Below, piece by piece: positions 50,729-54,866 of a stretch of 64,000 bases of DNA. Below the pieces are notes generated by a model. It was not told where the DNA came from and did not search any database. It saw nothing but the letters and a program-made list of their open reading frames with translations. The position numbers and the translations under genes were made by a program. Each line of letters opens with the position of its first letter. The stretch's first letter is position 1. The DNA is from Gemmatimonadaceae bacterium (GTDB taxonomy: Bacteria; Gemmatimonadota; Gemmatimonadetes; Gemmatimonadales; Gemmatimonadaceae). The stretch lies in the NCBI GenBank assembly GCA_025934775.1, contig JAICWO010000001.1, forward strand, positions 62,001-126,000, given 5' to 3'.

Positions 50729-51769
50729 CTAGCGTGCCGCCGGCTGCTGCTGCGTCAGACAATGCAACGTACCCAATCCCCACACCAGATCCACCGCGTG
50801 CACCCCGACCACCTGTCGGCCAGGGAAGAGCTCGGCTAGCGTGTTGAGCGCGATGCGGTCGTTGCGGTCGTTGAACGTCGGCACGATTACGACGCCGTTC
50901 GCGATATAAAAATTGGCATAGCTCGCCGGCAGTCGTTCGCCGTTCATGATCACCGGCCGCGGATAGGGCAGCTTCACCACTTTGAGCGCACCGCGCGCGC
51001 CGCCGGCGAGCTGAAGTCGCTCGAGATTGTCGACCGAGCGCCGATGGTTCTCGTCGTCGGCGGGATCGGCCTCGTACGCGAGCACGATCACGCCGGGCGC
51101 GGTGAAGCGCGCGACGTCGTCGACGTGGCCGTGCGTGTCATCGCCGACGCAGCCTTCGCCGAGCCAGATCGTCTCGCGAATTCCGAGATAGTCGCGGAAG
51201 ACCTGCTCGTATCCGCCGCGCGTGAGCCCCGGATTCCGCTCCTGCACCGTCGAGAGCAGGCACTCTTCCGTCACGAGGAGCGTGCCTTCGCCGTCGGTGT
51301 CGATCGCGCCGCCTTCGAGCACGACGCGTTCGCCCGTATCCGGCCGCTTCGGCTCGACGCGCGGCAGACCCGCAATGCGCGCGACCGCAGCGCCAACTTG
51401 CGCGTCGAGGTCGAAGTTCGCGTACTTCGCCCACGCGTTGAACTTCCAATTCATGAGCGTGACGGCGCCGTCGTCGTCCACGACGCCCGTCGGCGCCGAG
51501 TCGCGCAGCCACACGCGGTCGTTCGGCACCACGTGGAGCGTGAAATTGTCGGTGACCCCGTGCGCCGCGAGGTGCTCTCGAGCGGACGCCTTTACCTCGT
51601 CCGAATGACACAGAATCTCCACACGCTCGTGCCGATGCAGCACGCGGACGATCTCGGCGTAGACCCACGGAATGGGCGCGAGCTTGCCGGGCCAGTCGGG
51701 TTCGTGGTGAGGCCACGCGATCCAGGTGGCGGCGTGCGGAGCGTATTCGGCGGGGAACGTGTAAGTCAT
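50729..51769 (-). CDS. aguA: agmatine deiminase
   Basis: A 346-residue enzyme that converts agmatine to N-carbamoylputrescine and ammonia. Its marks are TWIAWPHHEPDWPGKL, VWLRDSAPT, LEGGAIDTDGEGTLL, GHVDDVARF and the catalytic Cys337 in GLGTLHCLTQQQP. It forms a polyamine module with the N-carbamoylputrescine amidase gene upstream (51927-52868), separated by 157 bp that contain a structured repeat. Confidence 0.95.
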   Translation of the reverse strand: MTYTFPAEYAPHAATWIAWPHHEPDWPGKLAPIPWVYAEIVRVLHRHERVEILCHSDEVKASAREHLAAHGVTDNFTLHVVPNDRVWLRDSAPTGVVDDDGAVTLMNWKFNAWAKYANFDLDAQVGAAVARIAGLPRVEPKRPDTGERVVLEGGAIDTDGEGTLLVTEECLLSTVQERNPGLTRGGYEQVFRDYLGIRETIWLGEGCVGDDTHGHVDDVARFTAPGVIVLAYEADPADDENHRRSVDNLERLQLAGGARGALKVVKLPYPRPVIMNGERLPASYANFYIANGVVIVPTFNDRNDRIALNTLAELFPGRQVVGVHAVDLVWGLGTLHCLTQQQPAAR

Positions 51770-51793
51770 TGATTGAACGTGGGGTTGTTCGAA

Positions 51794-51864
51794 GTAGGGT
51801 CGGCGGCTTTGCCGCCTGTACGATCGCTTCAGCGAGGGCTCGAACGAGCCGGAAACGACCCTAC
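51794..51864. repeat. cloverleaf-like intergenic inverted-repeat element
   Basis: Outer 9-bp stem gtagggtcg / cgaccctac encloses three small hairpins: ggcggc-ttt-gccgcc (51802-51816), cgct-tc-agcg (51825-51834) and ggctcg-aa-cgagcc (51837-51850). A second cgaccctac follows at 51884-51892. It lies between aguB and aguA. Confidence 0.65.
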
Positions 51865-51926
51865 AGTAGCGTGCTGTGCGCGCACGACCCTACAGGCGCG
51901 CAGCGCCGACCATACGCCGCGCCCCG

Positions 51927-52868
51927 CTACGCCCCCAAATACCGCGACAAAATCGGCGCGTACGCATCAATCCTCCGATCTCGCAAGAACGGCCAGTTTC
52001 GCCGCGTGTCCTCGATCAGCCGTGGATCACACGTCGCGATCAAGATCTCCGGCTCCGTGCCCGCGTCCGCGAGCAGGCGGCCAAACGGATCGGCGATGAA
52101 CGAGTGGCCGAAGAACTCGATCCCGTTCGTCCCCGGCTCCTCTTCGTGGCCGACACGATTCGGTGACGCGACGAAGACCCCGTTCGCGATCGCGTGCGCG
52201 CGCTGCATCGTGCGCCACGCGTCCACCTGCGCGGCGCCAAACTCCGACTTCTCCGCGGGGTGCCAGCCGATCGCCGTCGGATAGAACAGAATGTCGGCGC
52301 CGAGCAGCGCGGTGATGCGCGCCGCCTCGGGATACCATTGATCCCAGCATATCAGCACGCCGATGTTCGCGTAGCGCGTCTTCCACACGCGAAAGCCGCT
52401 CGCCTGCTTCGCGACATTGCCGATCGCGTCGATCCGATCGTCGGTCGCGGCGTCGCCGGGCGTGAAGTAGTACTTCTCGTTGTAGAGCGGATCGTCGGGA
52501 ATGTGCATCTTGCGATAGATGCCGAGCAGCGAGCCGTCGGCGTCGATGATCGCGGCGGAGTTGCGGTACACCCCGCGAGCCTGCCGCTCGAAGATCGGCA
52601 CGATGAGCACGATCTCGAGCTCCTTCGCCAGCACCTGCATGCGGTCGGTCGTCGGCCCGGGGATCGGCTCGGCGATGTCGAAGCGTTCACACTTCTGTGA
52701 TTTGCAGAAGTAGGGAGCGTTGAACAGCTCCTTCAGGCAGACGATCTGCGCGCCCCGCTTCGCGGCTTCGCGCACGCGCTCGATCGTCGCCGCCACCGTC
52801 GCGGCGGTGTCATCGCTCGCCGAATCCTGAATGATGCCGACGGTGAATGGGGACGGGGTGCTGGACAT
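51927..52868 (-). CDS. aguB: N-carbamoylputrescine amidase
   Basis: A 313-residue nitrilase-superfamily enzyme giving putrescine, CO2 and ammonia. The catalytic triad is E47 (LKELFNAPYF), K120 (IYRKMHIPDD) and C174 (VLICWDQWYPE). YNEKYYFTPGD and RRTWPF-like DTRRNWPFLRDRRIDAY are family marks. It is upstream of aguA on the same strand, so agmatine would be turned into putrescine by this pair. Confidence 0.95.
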   Translation of the reverse strand: MSSTPSPFTVGIIQDSASDDTAATVAATIERVREAAKRGAQIVCLKELFNAPYFCKSQKCERFDIAEPIPGPTTDRMQVLAKELEIVLIVPIFERQARGVYRNSAAIIDADGSLLGIYRKMHIPDDPLYNEKYYFTPGDAATDDRIDAIGNVAKQASGFRVWKTRYANIGVLICWDQWYPEAARITALLGADILFYPTAIGWHPAEKSEFGAAQVDAWRTMQRAHAIANGVFVASPNRVGHEEEPGTNGIEFFGHSFIADPFGRLLADAGTEPEILIATCDPRLIEDTRRNWPFLRDRRIDAYAPILSRYLGA

Positions 52869-52912: not shown

Positions 52913-54193
52913 TCAGAGCACGCCGATGACGATGTCTCCCACGTTCGTGCCCGTCTCTCGGCGCTGGATGAGCGCGCCTGCCGCCGCGAGCGCGCCGTAC
53001 GACTCGTGCGCGGCGAGCGCTCGCGACGGATCGCGGCCGGCATCCACGATCGCCGGCCACGTGAGCGCATCGACGATCGCGCCCGCGGCGTCGGTCGCGC
53101 CATCGCGGCCGTCGGTACCGGCGGCGAGCAACGTGATACCGTTCGCCGCGTCGCCCGCCTCGTGCAGCTCGCGCGCGGTGGCGAGCGCGAGCTCCTGACA
53201 TCGTCCGCCGCCGGTTGCGCGCGCGCCGCTGCCACGCAGCGTGACCGTTGTTTCGCCGCCCCAGATGAAGCAGCAGCTCGACTCGCCGCGTTCGCGCGCC
53301 GCGAGCATTTCTCGCGCGATCGCCGCGCCGGCCGCGGCCGCGTCGCCCGAGAGCCGCGTCGATTGCACGCGCGGCTCGAAGTGACGTTCGCGCGTACGAT
53401 CGGCCGCACCTGCGAGCGCGGCGCGATTGCTTCCGACGACGCGCGCCGTGACGTGCGCGAAGGCGGGATGATTGCGCCTCGGAGTTTCCGGCGTCCTTCC
53501 GCGTGAGACGGACTGCAAGTACTCGCGATGTGTCTGTGGCACGCGGGAGAGGAGCTTCGCGCGCTCGAGGATCGTCGTCACGTCGGCGACCCGCGTCTCG
53601 TCGGGCGAGCATGGTCCGGAGCCGATCACGGCGAGATCGTCGTTTGGCACGTCGGATATCGCGAGGCAGTGGGTCGCGGCCGGCGCGAGCGCGAGCGCGA
53701 GCCGGCCGGCGGCCCAGCGCGAGAATCGCTTGCGCACGGCGTTCATCTCGACGACGTCGAGTCCCGCGCCGAGGAGCAGCTCGAAGAGGGTGGTGAGATC
53801 CGCCTCGTTCATGCCGGCGATCGGAGCGCCGATCAGCGCGCTCGCTCCGCCCGAGAGGAGCACGATTGCGACGTCGTCACCGCGGCGGCCGGGGACCGTC
53901 TGCGCGACCGCGTTCGCGGCGGCGAACGAGTTGCGTCCCGGAATCGGGTGATCGCCGCGAATGGCCTGGAGCGTGGGGTAGGGCGCCGGACCGCCGTCCG
54001 GACTGACGACGATCCCCCCGACGATCGCGTGCAGCGATCGGAGGAGGGAGACGACGGCGGCGCTCGCCATCGGCTGCGCCGCCTTGCCGAACGCGAACAC
54101 CCAGACTCTCGCGCCGCGCGGGATCGAGAGGGCGTCGATCGCGCGAGCCGTCGCGGGGCCGGGCAGCGCCGCCGCGACGGCGGCATCATACAT
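52913..54193 (-). CDS. glycerate 2-kinase (MOFRL family)
   Basis: A 426-residue kinase making 2-phosphoglycerate. It has VWVFAFGKAAQPMA, IVVSPDG, GDHPIPGRNS, VLLSGGASALI, AVRKRFSRWAAGRLA, ISDVPND, and the C-terminal MOFRL part GRCQELALATA ... TDGRDGATDAAGAIVD. The ATG at 54193 may be too short: the preceding in-frame codons (SGRELLLE) look homologous to the family N-terminus, with a TTG at 54202 and a GAGGGA site further up near 54245. A TTG or rare start is therefore possible. Confidence 0.9.
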   Translation of the reverse strand: MYDAAVAAALPGPATARAIDALSIPRGARVWVFAFGKAAQPMASAAVVSLLRSLHAIVGGIVVSPDGGPAPYPTLQAIRGDHPIPGRNSFAAANAVAQTVPGRRGDDVAIVLLSGGASALIGAPIAGMNEADLTTLFELLLGAGLDVVEMNAVRKRFSRWAAGRLALALAPAATHCLAISDVPNDDLAVIGSGPCSPDETRVADVTTILERAKLLSRVPQTHREYLQSVSRGRTPETPRRNHPAFAHVTARVVGSNRAALAGAADRTRERHFEPRVQSTRLSGDAAAAGAAIAREMLAARERGESSCCFIWGGETTVTLRGSGARATGGGRCQELALATARELHEAGDAANGITLLAAGTDGRDGATDAAGAIVDALTWPAIVDAGRDPSRALAAHESYGALAAAGALIQRRETGTNVGDIVIGVL

Positions 54194-54254: not shown

Positions 54255-54866
54255 TTAATGCGTGCCTCCGCCGGCGCTCGCTCCCGCGGGCAGCGTCGCC
54301 GACACATCCTTCGCGAGCTCGGCATACGCCTGCTGCGACAGCACGTTGAACCGCATGATCCTCGATGCAACGCGGCCGTCCGGTCCAATGACGAACACGT
54401 TGCGGGTGTCGTACTTCGCGTTGTCCGCCGATCCGTACAGCTTGGCGACCGCCTGGTCGGGGTCGCTCGCGAAGAGGATCGGGAACCCGGAGTCGTGCGC
54501 CCAATCCATCTGCGTGGTGTCGGCGTCGGCACTGATTCCGATCACGACGACTTTCTTGCCGCCGTTGAAGAGCGTGGCGTACTGATCACGGTACGCCTCC
54601 ATTTGAATCGTTCAGCCTTTGGTCCGCGCCTTGGGGAAGAAGGCGAGCACCACCGTCTGCCCGCGAAAATCGGCGAGGTGTACCGGCGCTTTCAGCAATC
54701 CAAAGCGCGTCGAGCCGGGTAGCTGAAAATCCGGCGCCTGCTGGCCCGCATCGGGCGCCGACGCGGCGCCGCCTGGCTGCGCACCTTGCGCGCTGGCAAT
54801 CGCGGCCGCTCCGGCCAGGATCGCCGCGGCAAGTCCGATCGCGCGCGTGGTTGAACTTCCCGTCAT
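54255..54866 (-). CDS. selenocysteine-containing peroxiredoxin (in-frame TGA)
   Basis: A 203-residue exported thioredoxin-fold peroxiredoxin with signal MTGSSTTRAIGLAAAILAG ... ASAQ. Residues about 45-195 are the AhpC/TSA-Bcp type: APDFQLPGS, LADFRGQTVVLAFFPKARTKG-U-TIQMEAYRDQY, VVVIGISADADTTQMDWA, FVIGPDGRV. Codon 85 is TGA (54612-54614) where family members have the peroxidatic Cys (FFPKxxTxGCT). Coding sequence continues in the same frame on both sides without a gap. A hairpin 14 nt downstream fits a bacterial SECIS. Read conventionally it would be called as two fragments or a pseudogene. Confidence 0.88.
54576..54597 (-). promoter_or_regulatory. putative bacterial SECIS element
   Basis: On the minus strand ggcgtac / gtacgcc form a perfect 7-bp stem with 8-nt loop cgtgatca. 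The stem starts 14 nt after the TGA and the loop carries GU near its 5' side, the features expected of elements that recruit SelB. Confidence 0.75.

Follow-up and report, generated by a model that had tools for sequence, protein, structure and literature searches.

The window analysed here, a stretch of 64,000 nucleotides of Gemmatimonadaceae DNA, contains on its minus strand a frame (54866-54255) that begins with ATG at 54866, ends with TAA at 54257-54255 and has one internal stop codon, TGA at 54614-54612. This TGA is codon 85, and reading it as selenocysteine (Sec, U) gives a product of 203 residues. Its context, FFPKARTKG-U-TIQMEAYRDQYA, places it exactly at the Cys of the peroxiredoxin motif PxxxTxxC. 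The features of the locus are as follows.

54255-54866, minus strand: predicted exported one-Sec peroxiredoxin gene, defined by its frame, Pfam, homologue alignment and an AlphaFold2 model
54612-54614, minus strand: predicted Sec codon (TGA) at the peroxidatic Cys position (PKARTKGUT); the aligned column holds TGA in 67 orthologues and Cys in 37 homologues
54576-54597, minus strand: bSECIS hairpin, stem GGCGTAC/GTACGCC, loop CGTGATCA with GU; stem fully paired in 65/67 TGA genes, with pairs 1 and 4 covarying
54780-54866, minus strand: signal-like N-terminal segment, a hydrophobic core followed by ASAQ; the core precedes the domain in 67 Sec and 37 Cys forms
52913-54193, minus strand: glycerate 2-kinase-like gene (DUF4147/MOFRL), downstream of the peroxiredoxin gene and adjoining it in 18/30 loci

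One Cys form is among the 18 loci in which the glycerate kinase gene lies 3' of the peroxiredoxin gene. Further along the same strand (50729-52868), a peptidyl-arginine/agmatine-deiminase-like gene lies beside a carbon-nitrogen hydrolase gene, likely an agmatine degradation pair.

An earlier note on this DNA, made from the letters alone, had described a frame open apart from a single TGA, located this codon where peroxiredoxins have their peroxidatic Cys and stated that conserved sequence continues on both sides. All three points are upheld, by the coordinates read directly, by alignment of the TGA column with Cys in 37 homologues, and by a Pfam AhpC-TSA match (residues 41-167, E 4.9e-27, 94.8 bits) that spans the codon. 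The AlphaFold2 model has a pLDDT of 94, and its nearest structures are BCP and the one-Cys AhpE, tied at a Z of about 23. The characteristic PxxxTxxC(U) motif is present as PKARTKGU, the position of its Thr is occupied by T or S among orthologues, and the column of the active-site Arg (R119 in alignment A1) is invariant in 52 sequences. The window protein has no Cys anywhere, and no second Cys or Sec was found between -50 and +100 around the active site in any of the 67 Sec and 37 Cys forms. Because the protein lacks any other Cys, it would need an outside reductant, and it is probably a one-Sec peroxidase dependent on such an external partner. Every homologue has a hydrophobic stretch ahead of the domain, from which we infer that the protein is exported.

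A match to the peroxiredoxin was obtained in 98/98 genomes searched. About 110 loci were collected, and orthologues were identified among them by an alignment-based search. As the earlier note had anticipated, homologues carry either TGA or Cys at one column: among 104 sequences, the codon at residue 85 is TGA in 67 orthologues (window gene included) and TGC or TGT in 37 close homologues. These homologues are mutually related and hence not independent observations. In two genomes (G048 and G023; loci L048 and L059), Sec and Cys forms lie side by side as a tandem duplicate with different catalytic residues. On a wider scale, a DNA pattern consisting of the TGA and the hairpin core was found in 244/395 genomes of the phylum; it is confined to one class of soil bacteria (0/6 genomes of the other class), and the reversed pattern, used as a control, had zero matches in all listed genomes. 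A scan of contigs with one back-translated pattern of the Cys-read protein returned distant Cys peroxiredoxins only, a result with little bearing on distribution, its query having presumed Cys at the TGA.

TGA is one base away from TGC and TGT, and Cys homologues exist, so the codon might be viewed as a nonsense mutation, or a sequencing or assembly error, in an ordinary Cys peroxiredoxin. This reading is almost certainly wrong. The TGA is common to 67 orthologues from separate assemblies and three families of the order, the DNA pattern recurs in 244 genomes, the reading frame is preserved before and after the codon, and sel genes are present. The shared TGA column refutes a pseudogene or artefact.

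The hairpin starts 14 nt past the TGA and consists of a 7-bp stem (arms 54597-54591 and 54582-54576) closing a loop of 8 nt (54590-54583), precisely the perfect stem, GU-bearing loop and spacing that had been noticed earlier. The distance from TGA to loop is 21 nt, and the isolated stretch folds at -11.8 kcal/mol. Published rules for bSECIS elements specify a loop of 3-9 nt, a stem of 4-16 bp, a TGA-to-loop distance of 16-37 nt, a G within the first two loop positions and an MFE <= -7.5 (PMC13188914). The window hairpin lies within each of these limits, with its 8-nt loop (C-G-U...), 7-bp stem, 21-nt distance and -11.8 kcal/mol. A scan of the window and of the selB locus with Rfam gave nothing above cut-offs.

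Comparison of TGA and Cys genes revealed that the hairpin is conserved well beyond what the amino acid sequence requires. All seven stem pairs form in 65/67 TGA genes versus 2/37 Cys homologues. When codons were drawn at random from these genes' own usage with amino acids kept (300 rounds of synonymous resampling), perfect stems were expected in a mean of 11.3 and a maximum of 23 genes, against the 65/67 observed. The outermost stem pair covaries (G-C in 38, C-G in 17 and U-A in 10 of the 67 TGA genes), and in one orthologue two synonymous changes (GCG to GCA, TAC to TAT) convert the fourth pair from G-C to A-U. Within the loop, Arg is encoded by CGT in 64/67 and Asp by GAT in 65/67 TGA genes; CGC and GAC dominate elsewhere in these genes, and the Cys homologues mostly have CGC and GAC at the loop positions. 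As assessed by RNAalifold, the consensus energy is -19.6 kcal/mol for TGA genes versus -3.9 for Cys genes. Synonymous constraint and covariation of the hairpin are thus restricted to TGA genes. Constraint is also seen at two codons outside the hairpin. Gln at +3 (54603-54605) is CAA in 59/67 Sec genes though CAG dominates elsewhere, and Arg at -4 (54624-54626) is purine-ending in nearly all Sec genes and mostly CGC in Cys homologues.

The earlier note had reasoned that the organism must encode SelA, SelB, SelC and SelD. In the genome assembly (4.88 Mb, 47 contigs, 99.3% complete), all four were indeed found above curated cut-offs: selA on contig C23 (560 bits), selB on contig C25 (356 bits), and both selD (380 bits) and tRNA-Sec (74.5 bits; anticodon TCA by ARAGORN) on contig C15. 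The selD gene (G000:C15:6956-8067, minus strand), which adjoins tRNA-Sec, itself has an in-frame TGA at the usual Sec position (CAGUAAKLG). Clear neighbouring genes end normally at TGA, so the genetic code is unchanged overall.

Across genomes, the TGA form accompanies the Sec machinery. selA was above the cut-off in 60/66 genomes with a TGA form versus 10/32 without one (Fisher p 2e-9), and among 59 genomes a strong tRNA-Sec match was present in 36/38 TGA genomes versus 6/21 others. Two of the 6/66 TGA genomes lacking selA above the cut-off have partial selA matches, and two of the four without any selA match (G007 and G069) have a strong tRNA-Sec; we read these selA-less genomes as incomplete assemblies. 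The outcome that the earlier note had named as contrary, a lack of sel genes together with another residue or a decayed frame in relatives, did not occur.

These data also bear on whether the TGA could be decoded otherwise, by a Trp-inserting tRNA or leaky read-through, with a hairpin that is simply a by-product of the peptide. The conserved AYRDQYA does favour part of the stem, with 11/67 genes expected by codon resampling to have a perfect one. Such decoding is nevertheless very improbable, considering that synonymous stem and loop positions are fixed only in TGA genes, that TGA still terminates clear neighbouring genes, that the residue aligns with Cys rather than Trp, and that the TGA form tracks selA and tRNA-Sec.

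Taken together, these findings identify, with a probability of roughly 95%, a genuine selenoprotein gene in which UGA is translated as Sec in an AhpC/TSA-type peroxiredoxin with a predicted periplasmic one-Sec mechanism. The proposal of a selenoprotein in the earlier note is therefore supported, at the level of sequence, by the sel genes, the TGA/Cys column, the fit to bSECIS rules, and the covariation and synonymous constraint of the hairpin. UGA recoding, the SECIS, the machinery, the peroxiredoxin fold and the active-site residues are well supported by computation; export, substrate and reductant are predictions. In the mechanism that we propose, SelB carrying Sec-tRNA-Sec would bind the hairpin 14 nt past the UGA, and Sec would be inserted at the peroxidatic position of the peroxiredoxin, whose predicted destination after export is the periplasm. 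In that compartment the selenolate may react with H2O2 or organic peroxides, forming a selenenic acid, and an outside thiol or thioredoxin-like reductase would regenerate the enzyme, a one-Sec mechanism like that of the one-Cys AhpE.

UGA recoding is generally inefficient and selenium-dependent, and the genome has other AhpC/TSA-family genes without TGA. The codon might thus act as a regulatory stop, with the full enzyme made only when selenium is plentiful and translation otherwise ending after the exported N-terminal segment. We consider there to be only a very slight chance of this, as nothing points to an independent role for the first 84 residues, and a regulatory stop would in any case add to Sec insertion, not replace it.

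A tree of the 104 proteins shows five switches between Sec and Cys. The Cys forms of G036 and G076 are nested in Sec groups (SH-aLRT 91 and 90), and both genomes lack selA, which suggests that these proteins returned to Cys once the machinery had been lost. In G036, the Cys-form gene retains the CGTGATC loop and a large part of the stem. G026 likewise has a Cys form and no selA.

According to published descriptions, every peroxiredoxin subfamily conserves the Pro of the PxxxT/SxxC motif (PMC8945050), which acts as a solvent barrier (PMC3337327). Here, this Pro is retained in 37/37 Cys forms versus 18/67 Sec forms, the window gene being one of those that keep it; the other 49/67 have Phe, Tyr, Ile, Val or Ser at this position. 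This correlation between Pro loss and Sec is confounded by relatedness: well-supported branches of the tree provide just 2 independent contrasts, and the most that can be counted is 5. It is possible, at somewhat less than even odds, that there is a class-wide exported one-Sec lineage whose adoption of selenium eased the constraint on the otherwise near-universal Pro (now Phe, Tyr, Ile or Val) and which reverted to Cys where the Sec machinery was lost. Such a lineage would constitute a selenoperoxiredoxin subfamily of its own, its active-site chemistry altered. For the Pro-less exported one-Sec lineage, the rank of a subfamily may be justified.

Sec-peroxiredoxins of the TxxU type are well known (PMC1088965, PMC13188914, PMC9312934). 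Those already described (PrxU of Eubacterium acidaminophilum and the Sargasso Sea Prx family, COG1225) share the AhpC/TSA fold with the window protein and likewise have Sec for the peroxidatic Cys in PxxxTxxU, with a bSECIS just downstream. In contrast to them, the window protein has no second Cys and a predicted exported N terminus, and the Pro of PxxxTxxU, which it keeps, is replaced in most of its orthologues. Against the NCBIfam PrxU equivalog model NF040737 it scores 49.3 bits, far below the curated cut-off of 270 bits. AhpE of Mycobacterium tuberculosis (1xvw, 4x0x) shares the fold (Z about 22-23, 28% identity) and also has one catalytic residue and no resolving Cys, but this residue is Cys rather than Sec, and the sequence is not close (phmmer E about 2e-7). 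The best matches when sequence and fold are both considered are BCP/PrxQ proteins (such as Sulfolobus Bcp1/Bcp4, 3drn, 3hjp), AhpE and BCP being tied in fold Z. In many BCPs a resolving Cys follows five residues later, whereas the domain of the window protein has no other Cys.

The genome also contains a second TGA peroxiredoxin gene, a separate paralogue of BCP/PrxQ type (L139, G000:C6:63368-63754, plus strand; FFYPKDDTPGUTIEAVSFRD), in which Val occupies the position that often holds the resolving Cys in BCPs, and which has a strong hairpin past the TGA. Four relatives (L133, L134, L135 and L136) have a BCP-type TGA with a Cys five residues on (GUTxEAC) and form a separate Sec family.

Among the papers found, titles, abstracts and term counts yielded no description of selenoproteins in Gemmatimonadota. 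Novelty is modest, Sec-peroxiredoxins being already known; the differences are that a resolving Cys is missing, that export is predicted and that most orthologues have lost the active-site Pro. TGA-containing genes of this kind are usually annotated as truncated or overlooked, and well over half of the Gemmatimonadota genomes sampled appear to carry the peroxiredoxin. Its homologues form a naturally occurring set of Sec and Cys enzymes that differ in whether the conserved Pro and the Sec machinery are present, which lets one ask how selenium benefits a peroxiredoxin and by what route Sec is lost.
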